This document shows, in pieces, positions 776-22,247 of a stretch of 25,592 bases of DNA. This DNA comes from a virus: positions 1 through 25,592 of the IMG/VR virus record IMGVR_UViG_3300042898_004645; one strand, written 5' to 3'. The notes below the pieces were generated by a model. That model made no database searches. It was given only the letters and a program-made list of their open reading frames with translations, and was not told the DNA's origin. The first letter of the stretch is position 1, and every line of letters starts with the position of its first letter. The position numbers and the translations under genes were made by a program.

Positions 776-2512
776 CTATTTATTCCTAAATTTATCAAAT
801 TTCAGAATTATTCTATTTGATTTATTTATATCAATAGAGTTATTTTTATAATTTTCATTAGTGTCTTGTCCTTTGAATTCAACACCTTTAGTATCATACT
901 CAACCGATTTACCTTGTTCAAATGATTCTATTTTATCTTTAAGGTTATCAACAAATTCACGAGCTACTCTTTTCATAACATCTGTGTATTTATCAGTTTC
1001 ATATGCAACCATCGTAGCATCTTTATTATACTTTAAGAATCCCCAACCTTGAATATTTGTAATAGAAGGGTGACCACCAGAGTTTCTAGTTACTAGTTCC
1101 CAAACTGGAACTTTATATTCTTTAAGTATGGATAATTGATCGGCACTCAAATTATCATAAATAGTGTTCATAGCATCTTTAACATCTGAATTACTTATAT
1201 CAACTATCTCTCCACTCTTATAAACACAGTCATTATAAAATGCCTCAAGATCTGAGTATTTAAATCCAACACCCACATAATCTGGACCTTCTTCTTTTTG
1301 CATCTTTTTCCAGTCTTGAGATGTTTCAAACTCCTTCTTTATACAATCTAAAGAAACAAGAATCTTTGTTAAGATTGGTTGATGTTTAGCAATAACTTCT
1401 TTAGCAATCTCACCTAAATTAATGTCTTTCAGCATCTTTTCTTTAAATGGATTACAACTTACTTGTATAAGACCCATTGCCCATATTATACAAATAAAAT
1501 TAGAATCTGGAAAGTTTTTAAATGGAACATATCTATCATATGAACCAGGTTGAATCATATTACCACCACCATATTGTATAATAATTTTGTGTTTATCATC
1601 ATAATGAACACCTTTACCAACCTTAGCACCTTTTACAGATGAAAGGAATTTATGCTTACTACTATTAGGATCAAATTCACTAACATCTCCCGTATCTGGA
1701 TCTTCAATGAATCTATAATTCTTCATTCTCTCAATATAATTAGTAAGATTTTGCATAAGAACTTCAGGTTTAGCTAAAACACCAGCCCTATCAGATACAC
1801 GAGCATTATTAATATAATGTCTAATATTATTAAACATTGAATATAATGATGGATTACAATCTAAAACCATACACTCAAGAATGTTTCTATTAATATGGTC
1901 TCTTTTACCATCCATACTTTTAACAGTAATTCTCTTATTCTTATAAGCTAATAATAATCTATTGACTACAAATCCCATCATAAATCTATTCTTCTCACCA
2001 GATAGTCCTCTCTTAAATTGAAATATGGAATTCTGAATGTCATCTGGTGTTATATTATATGTAAGGAAATTAGCAGAATCAACAGTTCTAATTAGTTCAA
2101 CATCACCTGGTGTAAATATATCCGAGTAAGAAATCTCACCGGAGATTATCTCAACGTTTGAACGAGCTGGTTTGAAATAAGTTCCTTGTGTATCACCTGC
2201 ACCTACTTGCTTATCATGATGATCAGATTGTATTTTAAACATTGGTTTTCCGTGAGCAAAATCAACTAGTACGCATAAATTTCCTTCTTTATGATTCTTA
2301 ATAGCAAATTCCATTCCACCATATTGTATTTGGTGAGCATCAACAGTTTTTACTTGATAATAAGTTTCAAGGAAATATTTCATCGCAAGTGCTGAAGTAA
2401 CACCATCAAGATCTTTGTGAAAGTATATCTCAGCGGTTCTCATATCGCCAATTATTTTCTTGATATTTCTTATACCTACTTCTTCGTTTATGAATGAATT
2501 ATAATTCTGCAT
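776..2512 (-). CDS. DHH-family phosphoesterase with candidate capsid-targeting N-terminus
   Basis: 578 aa. The DHH (RecJ/NrnA-type) metal-site motifs are clear: F-H-K-D-L-D-G at residues 31-37 (H32, D34, D36), V-L-V-D-F at 81-85 (D84), and S-D-H-H-D at 96-100. A later S-G-G-H-P segment resembles the GGH substrate motif of DHHA1 domains. The family hydrolyses phosphodiesters in single-stranded DNA, short RNAs or cyclic dinucleotides; which substrate applies here cannot be read from sequence. At 578 aa it is longer than nanoRNases and near RecJ in size. The first ten residues, M-Q-N-Y-N-S-F-I-N-E, match the T4 capsid-targeting pattern cut after [L/I/F]-x-E. Its start lies inside the end of the upstream gene (14-base overlap), so the two are probably cotranscribed. 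DHH assignment strong; substrate unknown. Confidence 0.88.
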   Translation of the reverse strand: MQNYNSFINEEVGIRNIKKIIGDMRTAEIYFHKDLDGVTSALAMKYFLETYYQVKTVDAHQIQYGGMEFAIKNHKEGNLCVLVDFAHGKPMFKIQSDHHDKQVGAGDTQGTYFKPARSNVEIISGEISYSDIFTPGDVELIRTVDSANFLTYNITPDDIQNSIFQFKRGLSGEKNRFMMGFVVNRLLLAYKNKRITVKSMDGKRDHINRNILECMVLDCNPSLYSMFNNIRHYINNARVSDRAGVLAKPEVLMQNLTNYIERMKNYRFIEDPDTGDVSEFDPNSSKHKFLSSVKGAKVGKGVHYDDKHKIIIQYGGGNMIQPGSYDRYVPFKNFPDSNFICIIWAMGLIQVSCNPFKEKMLKDINLGEIAKEVIAKHQPILTKILVSLDCIKKEFETSQDWKKMQKEEGPDYVGVGFKYSDLEAFYNDCVYKSGEIVDISNSDVKDAMNTIYDNLSADQLSILKEYKVPVWELVTRNSGGHPSITNIQGWGFLKYNKDATMVAYETDKYTDVMKRVAREFVDNLKDKIESFEQGKSVEYDTKGVEFKGQDTNENYKNNSIDINKSNRIILKFDKFRNK

Positions 2513-2897
2513 ATAATTTACTATTTTTTGTATATATTAAAAATATTATTGAATTAACCTCAACATGTACCTTAACCAATTCTAAATCATAATAGTCTAG
2601 TCTAGATACTAGTTCAGATTGTCTTTCTAAAAAATCATCCGAGTTAATATATTGACTTAATTTATAAGGACTTGTTTTATCTAGTGATGTTAATCTAACT
2701 TGTATGTATGGTTTGAATCCTAACTTTATATCTTGATTAGTAACTTTAGTATCAAGTATATTAAATTGATGCAATTTCTTACCAAATGTTACTATTATTT
2801 GAAAATCATCAATGAAATCGCTAAATGTTTCTTTAATGTCATCTCTATTAACATTCCAAACTTCTTCCCTACCTTCAAAATATTTTAAGTAGTTCAT
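2499..2897 (-). CDS. Hypothetical protein between the amidoligase and DHH genes
   Basis: 132 aa, starting M-N-Y-L-K-Y-F-E-G. It overlaps the amidoligase stop by 4 bases upstream and the DHH start by 14 bases downstream, the usual sign of translational coupling in one operon. No domain that I recognise; alternating hydrophobic residues suggest a small alpha/beta fold. The start peptide resembles the targeting peptides of its neighbours, but no clear [L/I/F]-x-E site follows, so I do not count it with confidence. A TTTTTAATATATAC motif inside its 3' end could start transcription of the DHH gene separately. Confidence 0.75.
   Translation of the reverse strand: MNYLKYFEGREEVWNVNRDDIKETFSDFIDDFQIIVTFGKKLHQFNILDTKVTNQDIKLGFKPYIQVRLTSLDKTSPYKLSQYINSDDFLERQSELVSRLDYYDLELVKVHVEVNSIIFLIYTKNSKLYAEL
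2529..2546 (-). promoter_or_regulatory. Promoter-like motif inside the upstream gene, ahead of the DHH gene
   Basis: The minus strand reads TTTTTAATATATACAAAA about 18 bases before the DHH start codon. It is one of the best matches to the window-wide motif and lies within coding sequence of the 132-aa protein. Confidence 0.5.
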
Positions 2898-4270
2898 TTT
2901 TTATATGTGTCTATAATTCCTTTTTTATCACCTTTGTTTTCTGTATCAAATTTTGTATCAAAGAAGTTATCTTGGTTATCTACAATTTTAGTTTCAGAAG
3001 AAATTGTTGCATAAGGTCCTAATTTTCCACTTCTAAATACACCACCAGACATATCTCCATTTAAGAACCCACTCATAAAATAACAATCAACTAGTGATGT
3101 AGTTTCTACTCTACAGCTTAGAATTTTTGATGAATTAACATCTGAGGCTTCTATTTTTGATTTAGAAATTTGTGCCTTAGAAATTTCACATCCATAAAAA
3201 TTACAATTTTCAAAAATACCATCCAATATAGTACAATTAACAAATTCGATATTTTTTATCGTCATTGTAGATTTAACTTGAGCATCAATTATCTCTAACT
3301 TTTGAGTCAAGGTGACATAATTCAAAATACAATCTTTTAAATCGTCAGATGATTCGATTAGGTCCCAAAGTTTATCATAGATAGAAGTGAAATAAGAACT
3401 AACAAGTTCATACATATTACTTTGATCTATCTGCAGCTGTATAGTTGGATATTGAACAATAAAATTGTCATATTTAGAAAAGGATTTAAATTTATCAATA
3501 TTAGATTCTAAATATTTCTCTAGACTACTACAATCATTTTCATTAAATGATGCATCAATTGCATTATAGGAGTCTAGAATAAATCTATCGAGGAAATAAA
3601 CTAAATTTCCAATAGATTTCTCATAGTCTTGACCACCAATATATCGATATTCAATTCTTTGAGTTTCTTTATTATTATTGATATTTAAAAAGTTAATACC
3701 GTAGTACTTATCTTCTGGTAGATGTAAAGAATTTCTTATTGAGTCGATTGGAATATTAAAGAAGTCATATCCTTTGAATGGTATTATACTTTTGACTGAT
3801 TTAGCATATATATTTCCCTTTCTTGAAGGATAAAATGAATAAATTTCTTCTTCATTTGTGTTTAGTATTAATTTTAAAACATTAAGATCATTTAAATTTT
3901 TATCACCAAAAAATGATAAATTAAAATGTATTGAAGATTTCTCATTTGTATATCCATAGTTTTCAATAAATTTTGAAATCTTAACTAAGAAAAACTTAGC
4001 ATCATTGTACTCCATAGGTCCAGTTACCAACTCAACCATGTTTGAACCACCGGATAAGTCTGGCTCAATTTTGAAATTTTTATCATCTGGTACAAAGTCT
4101 GAATGGTAATGTCTAAACCCATGAACTCTAACAGGTGATAATTCCTTATTTAACATCTCAAGAGTTTTATAAAATGATAGATCCTTCATATAGAACTCGA
4201 ACTCAAATCCCACTTTGGCTTGTTTCAAACTACCATACTCATGTATAAATTTCTCTGAATATTTTCTCAT
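2894..4270 (-). CDS. Amidoligase-like enzyme fused to a pentapeptide-repeat C-terminus
   Basis: 458 aa. The first ~300 residues carry the pattern of the amidoligase / glutamine-synthetase-fold family (carboxylate-amine ligases): V-G-F-E-F-E-F near residue 20, K-I-E-P-D-L-S then E-L-V-T-G-P near 67-85, S-I-H-F-N-L near 113, and R-I-E-Y-R-Y-I-G-G near 208. These acidic, His and Arg positions fit ATP/Mg and substrate binding. From about residue 345 the sequence changes to short repeats (F-V-N-C-T, F-E-N-C-N, I-S-K-A-Q, I-S-K-S-K) typical of a pentapeptide-repeat beta-helix, over about 75 residues. The N-terminus M-R-K-Y-S-E-K-F-I-H-E fits a capsid-targeting peptide ending I-H-E. It heads the minus-strand cluster with the DHH gene. 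The family forms amide or peptide-like bonds; the target here is unknown. An ordinary glutamate-cysteine-ligase relative is the alternative. Confidence 0.68.
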   Translation of the reverse strand: MRKYSEKFIHEYGSLKQAKVGFEFEFYMKDLSFYKTLEMLNKELSPVRVHGFRHYHSDFVPDDKNFKIEPDLSGGSNMVELVTGPMEYNDAKFFLVKISKFIENYGYTNEKSSIHFNLSFFGDKNLNDLNVLKLILNTNEEEIYSFYPSRKGNIYAKSVKSIIPFKGYDFFNIPIDSIRNSLHLPEDKYYGINFLNINNNKETQRIEYRYIGGQDYEKSIGNLVYFLDRFILDSYNAIDASFNENDCSSLEKYLESNIDKFKSFSKYDNFIVQYPTIQLQIDQSNMYELVSSYFTSIYDKLWDLIESSDDLKDCILNYVTLTQKLEIIDAQVKSTMTIKNIEFVNCTILDGIFENCNFYGCEISKAQISKSKIEASDVNSSKILSCRVETTSLVDCYFMSGFLNGDMSGGVFRSGKLGPYATISSETKIVDNQDNFFDTKFDTENKGDKKGIIDTYKK

Positions 4271-4286
4271 TTTGTATATATTAAAA
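4271..4286 (-). promoter_or_regulatory. Promoter-like motif heading the amidoligase-DHH cluster
   Basis: The minus strand reads TTTTAATATATACAAA directly before the ATG at 4270. It is nearly identical to the motif before the DHH gene. The closeness to the start codon implies a very short leader. Confidence 0.5.
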
Positions 4287-13293: not shown

Positions 13294-13842
13294 ATGGAAA
13301 AAATGTCACTTTACGAACTTTATAGAATTCTTGAAAGGATTAAATCGTCTGACTACAAAGATGAAACTATCGAATATGTTGAAAATATTATTTCAGAAAA
13401 GGAGAGAGTTCTTGAAGACACTTCAGCTACTGGTGGTCCAGCCGGATCAGTAGGAGCAGCCGCAGTTGGATACGGTGGTGGTGGAGTTTCATTGAGTAAT
13501 GCCACAACTGCTGGTATGGGTGGTGTTGTATCTTCACAACCATCCGCATTTCCGGGAACTCTTAATGGTGTTGCTTGGGCATCTGGTGGTGGAACAGAAG
13601 GATCAGGTGATATATCTATACCTTATAATCCTAGTGGTGCAAATAGAATGTTTCAAAAATTACCAGTTATGGGAAAGAATCATAAATCACAAACCGGTAA
13701 AAAATCTAGACAAAAACCTTTAAATATAAAATCACTTAAAGATATTATGTCAAATAAAGGTAAGTCTTCTGGTAAAATAATGAACTTTAATGACTTTGAT
13801 AAAAAAGATATCACAACAAAAGTAACCAAGGTTAAAGAATAA
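13294..13842 (+). CDS. Glycine-rich hypothetical protein, probably virion-associated
   Basis: 182 aa. A helical start (residues 1-40, L-Y-E-L-Y-R-I-L-E-R-I) leads into a Gly/Ala/Ser-rich region (about 43-112, with G-Y-G-G-G-G-V-S-L) and then a Lys-rich tail ending in a segment with M-N-F-N-D-F-D-K-K-D. No enzymatic motif. Gly-rich linkers with a helical anchor are common in phage structural and internal proteins. It stands 16 bases before the lysozyme gene, in the same orientation, and both probably share the promoter at 13263. I do not recognise a family. Confidence 0.7.
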   Translation: MEKMSLYELYRILERIKSSDYKDETIEYVENIISEKERVLEDTSATGGPAGSVGAAAVGYGGGGVSLSNATTAGMGGVVSSQPSAFPGTLNGVAWASGGGTEGSGDISIPYNPSGANRMFQKLPVMGKNHKSQTGKKSRQKPLNIKSLKDIMSNKGKSSGKIMNFNDFDKKDITTKVTKVKE

Positions 13843-16410: not shown

Positions 16411-18180
16411 ATGGCTACTTTTACTGAAATTACCTTCCAAAATATAAAAACTCAAATAGAGAGATTTTTACAAGTAGAACATAATAAAGCAAGTATATTA
16501 TTTTCACCTGCATCACCGTATGGGCAAATTCTTAATGTAGTTCAGAATTTACACCAATTGTCTTTTTTATATTTGAAAAATTCAATAAATCAATTTGATT
16601 TAAGTGATCCAAACTCTAATAATCGTACAGTAATTCAAAATGCTGCTCTACTCGCTGGTCATATACCGGGAAGAGGAATTTCAGCAACTGGTAATCTAAA
16701 ATTGACCGTAAAGTCAGGAATCGATCTTGAAAAAGAACTTAAAGGTGGTAGAGTTACATTTAGTAATAGAGTTTTGTTAAAAAATAAAACTAATTCATTA
16801 GAGTATTCGCTCTATCTAGGACAAGAAAAGATAACTTATCTAATAAATCCATCAACTAGAATATATCTACCAATAATTCAAGGAAAATACGAAACTACAA
16901 ACTTCACCGGAAGCGGATCCATAAATCAAACTTATCAAGTAACACGGTCCGGTGTCCAAGATATTGAAAATTTTAACACAGAGGTTTTAGTAAATGGTAA
17001 CTTTTGGTCAATCAAAAAACATTTATACGAACTAGCACCAAATGAAGAAGGTTGTGTTGTTAGAACTGGATTCGATGGGGGTATTGACATAATATTTGGA
17101 AATGGAAATTTTGGAGCGATACCACAAATAGGGGCAGTAATTACAGTTACATACATTTTAACAGATGGTGATGATGGAAACATATTTAGAAGAACTTTTA
17201 ATGATTGGAAGTATGTCGATGACGCAACTGATGGATATGGTAACTCAATTGATGCGAGTAAAATTTTCGATACTGCTATCTATAATGATATAAATTTTGG
17301 AGCGGATGGTGAAAGTTATGTTTTTACTAGAAATATTTTACCAATCGCATCTAATAATTTTGTATTAGGTCTTCCACAACAATATGCTTATGAAATAAAA
17401 AAATTAGGAGTTTTTTCTCACGTTAACGCATATGAAAATGATAATATGGTTTTTATAGTTGCTACTCCTAATATAAAATTATTTAAAAATCAAAATTCCG
17501 ACTATTTCTCTGTAAATATAAGAGCCTTTGAACTAGATAATTATGAGAAATCTAAAATAGATAAATATCTAAGAACTAATGGAAACATACAACTTACTAG
17601 AAAATATAGAATTGACTCACCATCATTATCGTATTATATAATGAATGTATTTGTAATAAGATATTCAGACTCAAATGATGATGCAATCCAAAGTCAAGTA
17701 ACTGATGTGGTTTCAGAGTATTTTTTAAATTTCAGTCGTATAGATAGAATACCAAAATCTGATTTAGTTAAAGAGATAGCAATGATTAATGGCATACATT
17801 CTGTTGATGTTCAATTTATATCTAGGAAAAATGAAGATTATCACAGAGAAGAAAATATAAGACAACAAAATACCATGAATGCTGCAAGTAACTTTAAAAC
17901 TAACGCACTTTCTATGCCAAATACTGATATAGCAATACCTGGTTCAGCTATCGAACCTATAAAAATGAATGTAGATTATTCATCGACTAAATTAATTGGT
18001 CTAGATCCAGTACTTGGTGATATAATATTTGAACCTAGTGAGATTCCGATAATTCGTGGAGGGTGGTATGATAGAAATGGAATTTATCTCTCGGATGAAA
18101 TCTCTGGAACAGGTCTTAAATCAATTAACATTATCAAAAAAGGCGTAGTTGATTCAAAATTAAGAAATAATGTTGTATAA
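16411..18180 (+). CDS. Baseplate wedge protein, gp6 / gpJ-like (Baseplate_J family)
   Basis: 589 aa. The layout is that of Baseplate_J proteins: a helical N-terminus with I-L-F-S-P-A-S-P-Y-G-Q-I-L-N; a segment with N-R-T-V-I-Q-N-A-A-L-L-A-G-H-I-P; a central beta-rich region with G-F-D-G-G-I-D-I-I-F-G-N-G-N-F-G near residue 220, and V-T-Y-I-L-T-D-G-D-D-G-N near 247; then alpha/beta wing domains with Y-L-R-T-N-G-N-I-Q-L near 385. The F-G-N-G-x-x-G block is the most diagnostic. In contractile phages this protein dimerises to form the iris ring of the baseplate periphery. T4 gp6 is 660 aa, so the length fits. Its neighbours are small unknown genes in the same unit. Confidence 0.85.
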   Translation: MATFTEITFQNIKTQIERFLQVEHNKASILFSPASPYGQILNVVQNLHQLSFLYLKNSINQFDLSDPNSNNRTVIQNAALLAGHIPGRGISATGNLKLTVKSGIDLEKELKGGRVTFSNRVLLKNKTNSLEYSLYLGQEKITYLINPSTRIYLPIIQGKYETTNFTGSGSINQTYQVTRSGVQDIENFNTEVLVNGNFWSIKKHLYELAPNEEGCVVRTGFDGGIDIIFGNGNFGAIPQIGAVITVTYILTDGDDGNIFRRTFNDWKYVDDATDGYGNSIDASKIFDTAIYNDINFGADGESYVFTRNILPIASNNFVLGLPQQYAYEIKKLGVFSHVNAYENDNMVFIVATPNIKLFKNQNSDYFSVNIRAFELDNYEKSKIDKYLRTNGNIQLTRKYRIDSPSLSYYIMNVFVIRYSDSNDDAIQSQVTDVVSEYFLNFSRIDRIPKSDLVKEIAMINGIHSVDVQFISRKNEDYHREENIRQQNTMNAASNFKTNALSMPNTDIAIPGSAIEPIKMNVDYSSTKLIGLDPVLGDIIFEPSEIPIIRGGWYDRNGIYLSDEISGTGLKSINIIKKGVVDSKLRNNVV

Positions 18181-19524: not shown

Positions 19525-20727
<1,203 letters not shown>

Positions 20728-21489
20728 ATGGAAAATATACTTTATCAGGACGATTGCTTTAATATCTTTCCTAGATTTGAAGATAAATCAATAGATTTGA
20801 TATTATGTGACTTGCCTTATAATACGACAAGAGCAAAATGGGATATTCAATTAGATTTGAATTTATTATGGGAACATTATAAAAGAATAATTAAAGATAA
20901 TGGAGCTATTTTATTATTTGCGCAAACACCATTTGATAAAGTTTTAGGTTGCTCAAATTTGGAGTGGTTGAAATATGAATGGATCTGGGAAAAAACACAA
21001 GCAACTGGATGGTTAAACGCTAAGAAGATGCCTATGAAATCACATGAGAATATCTTAGTTTTTTATAAAAATCCACCAACCTATAATCCTCAAAAAACTA
21101 CTGGTCATAAACCGATGCACTCATATACAAAAAGACCAGAGGTTCAGAATAAAACTGAACTATATGGAGAGATGAATCGTGTTATATCAGGAGGTGGTGA
21201 TACTGATAGATATCCAAGATCTGTTTTGGTTTTTTCATCAGATAAACAGAAAAATAAATTAGATGGAACAATCCACCCAACCCAAAAACCATTAGCACTT
21301 TGTGAGTATTTAATCAAAACATATACAAATGAAGGAGATTTAGTTCTAGACAACACTGCTGGTAGTGGAACTACTGGATTAGCAGCTAAAAATACGAATA
21401 GGAAATATATTTTAATTGAAAAAGAAGAAAATTGGTGTCAAGTAATTAAAAAAAGAATTCCTGATATCTATGAGTATAAACATTTATAA
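20728..21489 (+). CDS. DNA methyltransferase, beta-class (D-L-P-Y type), probably adenine-N6
   Basis: 253 aa. Motif IV is D-L-P-Y-N-T-T at 28-34, a known variant of D-P-P-Y in a large phage/bacterial family with D-L-P-Y-G-T-T. The S-adenosylmethionine motif D-N-T-A-G-S-G-T-T-G comes near residue 206. Catalytic motif first and SAM motif last is the beta-group order. Intervening W-I-W-E-K, N-A-K-K-M-P and H-E-N-I-L-V-F-Y segments are typical of the family, as is H-P-T-Q-K-P. The enzyme would methylate specific DNA sites. No restriction endonuclease is adjacent, so it is an orphan likely used for protection from host restriction or for marking phage DNA. The start codon directly follows the purA stop. 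Confidence 0.9.
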   Translation: MENILYQDDCFNIFPRFEDKSIDLILCDLPYNTTRAKWDIQLDLNLLWEHYKRIIKDNGAILLFAQTPFDKVLGCSNLEWLKYEWIWEKTQATGWLNAKKMPMKSHENILVFYKNPPTYNPQKTTGHKPMHSYTKRPEVQNKTELYGEMNRVISGGGDTDRYPRSVLVFSSDKQKNKLDGTIHPTQKPLALCEYLIKTYTNEGDLVLDNTAGSGTTGLAAKNTNRKYILIEKEENWCQVIKKRIPDIYEYKHL

Positions 21490-21509
21490 TCTAATTCTAT
21501 ATAAAACTT

Positions 21510-22247
21510 ATGACAAACCAAATTCACAATTTAGATTGTATAGATTTCATGAAAACTCTTCCAAATGAGTCCATTGATTTGACAATTACTGACCCACCAT
21601 ACACTATTAATTATTCTTCTTATAGAACAAAGACCAAGGTTATTGCAAATGATGATAATAAAGATTGGATATCTCCTTTTTTTGAAGAATTGTCCAGAGT
21701 GGTTAAAAAAGGATCACACCTATATTGTTTTTGTGATTTTGAAATGTCTTCTGATTTTGTTGCTGAGATTAGAAAATATTGGAAAGTTAGAAATCTTCTA
21801 TGTATTCCAAGAACTATTAAAGGAAATGGTGGTGATAGAATCTTTCAACAACAATTTGAGTATGTTATCTTCGCAACTCGTGGTAATAGAACCGAAGGTA
21901 GAAAATTCAATCAAACACAAATATTAAAACCATCAGAAACTTATCTTAAAGATAAAAGATATAATGCTAAAGAATGGTTGTATAGATTACCAGATTATTG
22001 GTACTGGACAAAAGCATCAGAATTCAATCATGATAGATTACATCCAAATCAAAAAAATGTTGATTGTTTAAAAGATATGATTGCCTTATCATCAAATCCA
22101 GGTGAGATTGTTTTTGATCCTTTCTGTGGTAGTGGTTCAACACTCTTAGCCGCTAAACTTCTAGATAGAAAATGGATCGGATGTGAAATTGATGCTAAAT
22201 ATGTTGATGTATCTAATAATAGATTAAAAGTAAAAGAAACGGTTTGA
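21510..22247 (+). CDS. Second DNA methyltransferase, beta-class (D-P-P-Y)
   Basis: 245 aa. Motif IV T-D-P-P-Y at 27-31 and SAM motif F-D-P-F-C-G-S-G-S-T near residue 209, with H-P-N-Q-K-N before it, again give the beta-group order. D-P-P-Y allows N6-adenine or N4-cytosine methylation. The sequence between the motifs differs clearly from the preceding methyltransferase, so the pair is not a recent tandem duplication and probably recognises different sites. It begins 20 bases after the previous stop, in the same unit. Confidence 0.9.
   Translation: MTNQIHNLDCIDFMKTLPNESIDLTITDPPYTINYSSYRTKTKVIANDDNKDWISPFFEELSRVVKKGSHLYCFCDFEMSSDFVAEIRKYWKVRNLLCIPRTIKGNGGDRIFQQQFEYVIFATRGNRTEGRKFNQTQILKPSETYLKDKRYNAKEWLYRLPDYWYWTKASEFNHDRLHPNQKNVDCLKDMIALSSNPGEIVFDPFCGSGSTLLAAKLLDRKWIGCEIDAKYVDVSNNRLKVKETV

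Follow-up and report, generated by a model that had tools for sequence, protein, structure and literature searches.

A DHH phosphodiesterase-like protein with a T4-type leader encoded beside a glutamine synthetase-fold ligase in a fragment related to giant phages

The internal proteins IPIII and IPII of phage T4 both start with MKTYQEFIAE|A (from AF158101). For IPIII the first 10 residues suffice for targeting to the capsid, residues 4 and 7 serving mainly targeting and residues 8 and 10 processing, and gp21 cleaves after L/I-x-E (PMC9026906). Amidoligase_2 (PF12224) ligases, which are glutamine synthetase (GS)-like, have been annotated in other phages (PMC10580990), and NrN of Bacteroides fragilis, most like the pGpG phosphodiesterase PggH, specifically degrades SAM-AMP (S-adenosylmethionine-AMP; PMC10600005). 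Phage nucleases are also described that degrade the signalling nucleotides of two immune systems, the cyclic-oligonucleotide-based antiphage signalling system (CBASS) and the pyrimidine cyclase system for antiphage resistance (Pycsar) (PMC9117128). Here we describe three overlapping minus-strand genes of the virus record IMGVR_UViG_3300042898_004645, a fragment of 25,592 bases that was analysed at its full length (G000, hereafter the window). They encode a DHH/DHHA1 phosphodiesterase-like protein with a leader of the T4 type (DHH), a small protein (MID) and an amidoligase-like protein with a GS fold (AMD; Table 1).

The best explanation of this locus, to which we give a probability of roughly 0.55, is a capsid-cargo DHH phosphodiesterase encoded beside a GS-fold ligase of the virion module. 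Proteins of the window match those of phages larger than 600 kb, namely LR756502 (642 kb), LR745206 (634 kb), LR756501/LR756503 (735 kb) and LR756504 (636 kb), and also those of LR756500 (462 kb), and these matches relate the fragment to the Mahaphages of Bacteroidetes, with genomes above 630 kb. A survey of complete huge-phage genomes in this size range places the largest in the Mahaphage clade, with Bacteroidetes as predicted hosts (PMC7162821).

The DHH leader, MQNYNSFINE|E, agrees with the T4 sequence at positions 1, 4, 7, 8 and 10. Among the homologs with a comparable leader, compared by eye and with the window excluded, [ILV]xE ends the leader in 29 of 30 (the exception, L019, has TNE), a count that does not amount to 30 independent tests because these homologs are related. 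Leader length varies among them, and two of 32 (L058, L070) are leaderless and start at MSGI. An automatic pattern found the [ILV]xE junction in 29 of 38 rows, window included, the other rows being leaderless, of unclear start or missed by the pattern (L019, L053). All five sequenced relatives possess a Gp23 capsid protein and a match to the S77 prohead protease, the latter exceeding the cut-off in one of them, and their capsid proteins carry a predicted cleavage junction of the form [IML]xE|N (HQINE|N, HSINE|N, HQMNE|N, HQIHE|N and HELYE|N). In LR756502, a prohead-protease-like protein of 699 amino acids (225272-227371, L174) contains a long repeat of the YSEYIAENLDKNI type and is perhaps a protease-scaffold fusion.

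Tag-like N-termini are frequent in one of these relatives. As N-termini showed hardly any enrichment of a generic hydrophobic-x-E pattern, stricter tag patterns were applied to 318 genes sampled over 230 kb of LR756502, with internal windows for comparison. A broad tag pattern matched 74 of the 318 N-termini as against 2-11 of the 318 internal windows, KYLKxFE-like tags 30 as against 0-1, and a strict T4-like pattern 13 as against 0, 0, 2 and 2, an enrichment that is not due to chance. The DHH homolog of the 735-kb phage sits amid tagged genes; in LR756501 it lies 49 kb from AMD, flanked by genes starting MLKNYWTYIKES and MLRYFDYIKES. Together, the T4-like leader, the conserved junction, and the protease and tags of the relatives make it most likely that the DHH protein is packaged in the head and ejected, so that by its sequence it is probably delivered with the phage DNA. 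The earlier note had assigned a putative packaging tag to two of the three genes. This stands clearly for DHH, while MID bears a second class of N-terminal tag (MNYLKYFE) and the amidoligase shows only the aromatic spacing (Y4, F8, I9), the Glu of the cleavage motif being present in just 5 of 47 homologs. Two further observations concern the tags: a T4 Rnl1-type RNA ligase in another contig (L178:41690-42961) has the T4-like leader MKKLHRYNSFIKES, and many small tagged phage proteins (L064-L067) also share a C-terminal peptide (NKYNL, KKFNV), forming a two-ended tag.

The DHH fold itself is clear. A PDB sequence search with the window protein or its profile gave no convincing relative, so that fold comparison was needed for DHH, as it was for AMD. 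The DHH model is good (predicted local distance difference test score, pLDDT, 85.8; predicted template modelling score, pTM, 0.85), with residues 1-10 and 550-578 under pLDDT 50. Its best structural match is PggH (7d62; Z 17.2 over 272 residues, 4.8 A), followed by an archaeal PAP phosphatase (8a8k, Z 15.8), TM1595/NrnA types (about 11-13), RecJ (about 11) and NrN (10.6). The profile PF01368 matches the window protein weakly (6e-4, 20.5 bits, against a curated cut-off of 28.1) and 33 of 38 homologs at E <= 1. D84, D97-H98-H99, D145 and G479-G480-H481 occur in all 38, and H32, D34 and D36 in 36, the other two having gaps. The identification as a DHH phosphodiesterase made in the earlier note is thus borne out by fold and intact active-site motifs, and its closest solved folds, those of small-nucleotide phosphodiesterases, make DHH a putative enzyme of this type. 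The homologs form three groups, one close, one distant (about 20-22% identity) and one compact (about 40%), and a C-terminal end of the KFxxF type is found in both DHH subfamilies. A 91-residue open reading frame in one contig (L055:5407-5682) has the tag and the DHH-type C-terminal tail with no DHH core.

AMD likewise has a confident AlphaFold model (pLDDT 86.9, pTM 0.81). Its top Foldseek matches are glutamine synthetases, to which VIA-align superposes model residues 2-243 with Z 12.6 over about 195 residues at 3.1-3.2 A, in agreement with the GS-like fold that the earlier note had expected. Residues E23, E25, E80, R150, E207 and R209 are invariant across 47 homologs and H115 is kept in 45; the conserved ExE, E, HxN, R and ExR are what we take, by motif rather than residue superposition, to be the metal and ATP sites of GS. 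Amidoligase_2 matches the window protein weakly (12.2 bits, curated cut-off 22) and 11 of the 47 homologs at E <= 1 (best 1.2e-4), the cut-off being exceeded in one relative (L085, 22.5 versus 22 bits). The beta-helix proposed for the C-terminal tail is visible as strands in the model from about residue 314 to 417, and Pentapeptide_4 matches there at 2.6e-6, under its curated cut-off. The AMD profile run against PDB sequences retrieved mainly pentapeptide proteins, through the tail, and no glutamine synthetase. As modelled, AMD is probably an active GS-fold ligase, with ATP-dependent amide-bond formation as its predicted reaction.

A profile scan found at least 505 AMD relatives in viral contigs. 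A cellular origin was considered and rejected, as a single relative was found among 84,980 genomes of bacteria and archaea, on a contig of a Bacteroidetes metagenome-assembled genome with no DHH, Ad2, gp25 or gp6 homologue in the stretch examined; within reach of the patterns used, the family therefore seems largely viral. Among 49 AMD loci with no DHH nearby, the head-tail adaptor Ad2 (phrog_211) was found in 40, a gp25-like wedge protein in 37 and a gp6-like wedge protein in 29, and at least one of the three in 41. Such neck-adaptor and baseplate neighbours suggest a virion-assembly enzyme rather than a pathway partner of DHH. AMD thus appears to belong to the virion module, and DHH to have joined it in one lineage; AMD probably works during virus assembly. 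This wider neighbourhood points away from the suggestion that the amidoligase modifies a host molecule at the start of infection.

The open reading frames and their 4- and 14-base overlaps were confirmed, and lie on the minus strand. By contig, and the contigs are not independent lineages, some being near-duplicates, AMD and DHH adjoin or lie within about 2.1 kb of each other in 33 of the 35 contigs whose AMD reaches about 54% identity; of the other two, one retains a DHH remnant (the 91-residue frame of L055) and in one (L044) DHH was not found. MID was recognised in just 10 of the 34 DHH-linked contigs, and strict conservation of all three genes is hence rejected. After removal of the tag, an iterated MID profile gathered 33 members, of which 29 are tagged, from the window and the 230 kb of LR756502, whereas the profile including the tag gathered 56, some matching mostly via the tag; on this evidence MID is an interchangeable member of a large family of tagged paralogs expanded in a related giant phage. 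The pairing of AMD with DHH elsewhere holds, in contrast to conservation of the trio, and a special three-gene functional unit is not supported, MID being a replaceable paralog and AMD and DHH each occurring in further giant phages with the other not nearby. In four contigs (L018, L020, L126, L132) a reading frame of 300-585 amino acids (MIxxIWxP...), possibly a homing endonuclease, lies beside or perhaps inside the DHH gene region.

It is quite possible that AMD and DHH are functionally unrelated and lie together only since the region is rarely rearranged, a reading compatible with the cargo-and-ligase explanation. DHH is inverted in 6 of the 33 linked contigs and is separated from AMD by other genes in several, which, with the replaceability of MID, fits this account; the pair nevertheless persists where the other flanks differ (L003, L019), and while DHH identity falls to about 20%.

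In the cargo-and-ligase explanation, we infer from the folds, active-site residues, leader, protease and neighbourhoods described above that DHH, expressed late, would be made as a precursor whose T4-type capsid-targeting leader carries it into the prohead core, where the gp21-like phage protease would cleave after FINE. The mature enzyme would be ejected together with the DNA and could then hydrolyse small molecules, linear or of the dinucleotide type, which plausibly are signalling nucleotides of immunity or of other kinds. AMD would form amide bonds on a neck, tail or baseplate protein of the phage during assembly, with the beta-helix as a docking part. The two genes would adjoin because each contributes to making virions in this lineage, and not through one common substrate, with MID as an exchangeable paralog.

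Several points weigh against this explanation. The DHH superfamily spans small-nucleotide enzymes to RecJ nucleases, so that the fold does not fix the substrate. The neck and baseplate neighbours belong to distant relatives of AMD, the AMD of the window clade lying divergently beside tail genes, and no capsid or protease gene was recognised within the window fragment. About a quarter of the genes sampled from one relative have tag-like N-termini, which is above the usual number of internal head proteins, and at this frequency the broader tag may have another role.

Counter-defence by DHH is possible by analogy, because some of the enzymes closest in fold degrade signalling (di)nucleotides. A unit dedicated to it is unlikely: here the packaged DHH would destroy a signalling nucleotide, examples being the products of CBASS and the SAM-AMP of type III CRISPR in Bacteroidetes, and as infection starts the amidoligase would modify a nucleotide or a protein of the host. 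The likeness of DHH to PggH and NrN, the Bacteroidetes predicted as hosts, the delivery with DNA that the leader suggests and the proximity kept in 33 of 35 clade contigs all agree with such a unit, but the two genes are separable in other giant phages, the wider synteny of AMD is that of virion assembly, and PADLOC gave no match for DHH (nor for MID, and for AMD a weak match to an unnamed candidate model only). As NrN cuts SAM-AMP, this molecule is a natural candidate substrate in Bacteroidetes, which is not evidence for the activity of DHH. It is also rather improbable that DHH recycles nucleic acids or nucleotides as a nuclease of the RecJ or nanoRNase kind and that its tag serves protein localisation in general and not head packaging. 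In favour are the high rank of NrnA- and RecJ-type folds, the great frequency of tag-like N-termini and the tagged RNA ligase of a relative; against it, the leader matches the T4 sequence at the experimentally important residues and its [ILV]xE junction is kept across leaders of differing length.

Identical AATATATAC words stand upstream of AMD and of DHH. Words of the AATATATA type are enriched upstream of the genes of this lineage, as compared with mononucleotide shuffles only, and by their consensus may be promoters. The plus strand of the window carries tail, baseplate and lysis genes, including an amidase and a lysozyme. Downstream of DHH, a 146-residue reading frame (298-738), whose start resembles a signal peptide, has no convincing relative among the loci examined. 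An adenylosuccinate-synthetase-like frame (19543-20727) is followed by two which, by sequence reading, resemble DNA methyltransferases (20728-22247). Small proteins at 13294-13842 of the window, L176:30294-30539 and L004:17234-17488 have a stretch like NAxxAGMGxV...QPxxxPGT...GSGD, also present in the N-terminus of the LR756502 capsid protein.

Table 1. Positions of the three genes, their parts and other features in the window.
Feature	Position	Strand	Basis
AMD, GS-fold amidoligase-like protein with C-terminal beta-helix, 458 amino acids	2894-4270	-	open reading frame, model, GS matches
AMD GS-like catalytic domain, residues about 15-243	3542-4228	-	model, alignment
AMD pentapeptide-like beta-helix tail, ending in conserved GGVFRSGKLGPYA motif	3008-3343	-	model, profile
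MID, 132 amino acids, MNYLKYFE tag	2499-2897	-	open reading frame, profile
DHH/DHHA1 phosphodiesterase-like protein, 578 amino acids	776-2512	-	open reading frame, profile, model
DHH capsid-targeting-like leader MQNYNSFINE|, residues 1-10, low confidence (disordered) in model	2483-2512	-	
DHH domain with HKDLDG, LVDFAH and DHH motifs (H32, D34, D36, D84, D97-H98-H99, D145)	1793-2443	-	alignment
DHHA1-type SGGHPSI motif (G479, G480, H481 invariant)	1061-1081	-	alignment
DHH low-confidence C-terminal tail, ending RIILKFDKFRNK	779-865	-	model, homologs
AMD/MID overlap, 4 bases	2894-2897	-	
MID/DHH overlap, 14 bases	2499-2512	-	
AATATATAC upstream of AMD	4274-4282	-	
AATATATAC, identical word, upstream of DHH	2530-2538	-	
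Baseplate wedge gp6-like	16411-18180	+	

The largest phages of this kind are known here from metagenomes only, and the cargo-and-ligase explanation, if true, would provide a candidate list of their ejected proteins from sequence alone, while a packaged enzyme that cuts nucleotides would pre-empt immunity based on nucleotide signals. A GS-type ligase conserved in hundreds of giant-phage contigs, often by neck and baseplate genes, suggests that virion assembly includes a protein modification not yet described. We put forward only tentatively, and with some doubt, the wider idea that the largest phages pre-load their heads with dozens of enzymes via a T4-type tag, among them a DHH enzyme removing signalling nucleotides at DNA entry, before phage gene expression, and that a dedicated GS-fold ligase modifies the neck or tail machinery.

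The titles and abstracts of the papers found on huge phages and amidoligases, including PMC7824862, contain no pointer to this arrangement. Like IPII and IPIII of T4, DHH has a leader of 10 residues, aromatic at 4 and 7 and with Ile 8, Glu 10 and a cleavage-type junction, and matches to a gp21-type (S77) protease occur in the related phages; unlike them, the predicted cargo here is a 578-residue DHH enzyme in a Mahaphage relative. With PggH (7d62), PAP phosphatase (8a8k), NrnA/TM1595 and NrN it shares the DHH fold, the catalytic motifs and the GGH motif, from which it departs by its leader, insertions and C-terminal tail. Its putative likeness to the anti-CBASS and anti-Pycsar nucleases (PMC9117128) lies in the idea of action. 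AMD resembles the Amidoligase_2 ligases in its GS fold, invariant Glu and Arg, nearly invariant His and weak-to-threshold profile match; no glutamine amidotransferase or gamma-glutamylcyclotransferase neighbour of AMD was noticed, no systematic search for them having been made. What sets AMD apart from these ligases is its C-terminal beta-helix and the neck and baseplate neighbourhood of its distant relatives.

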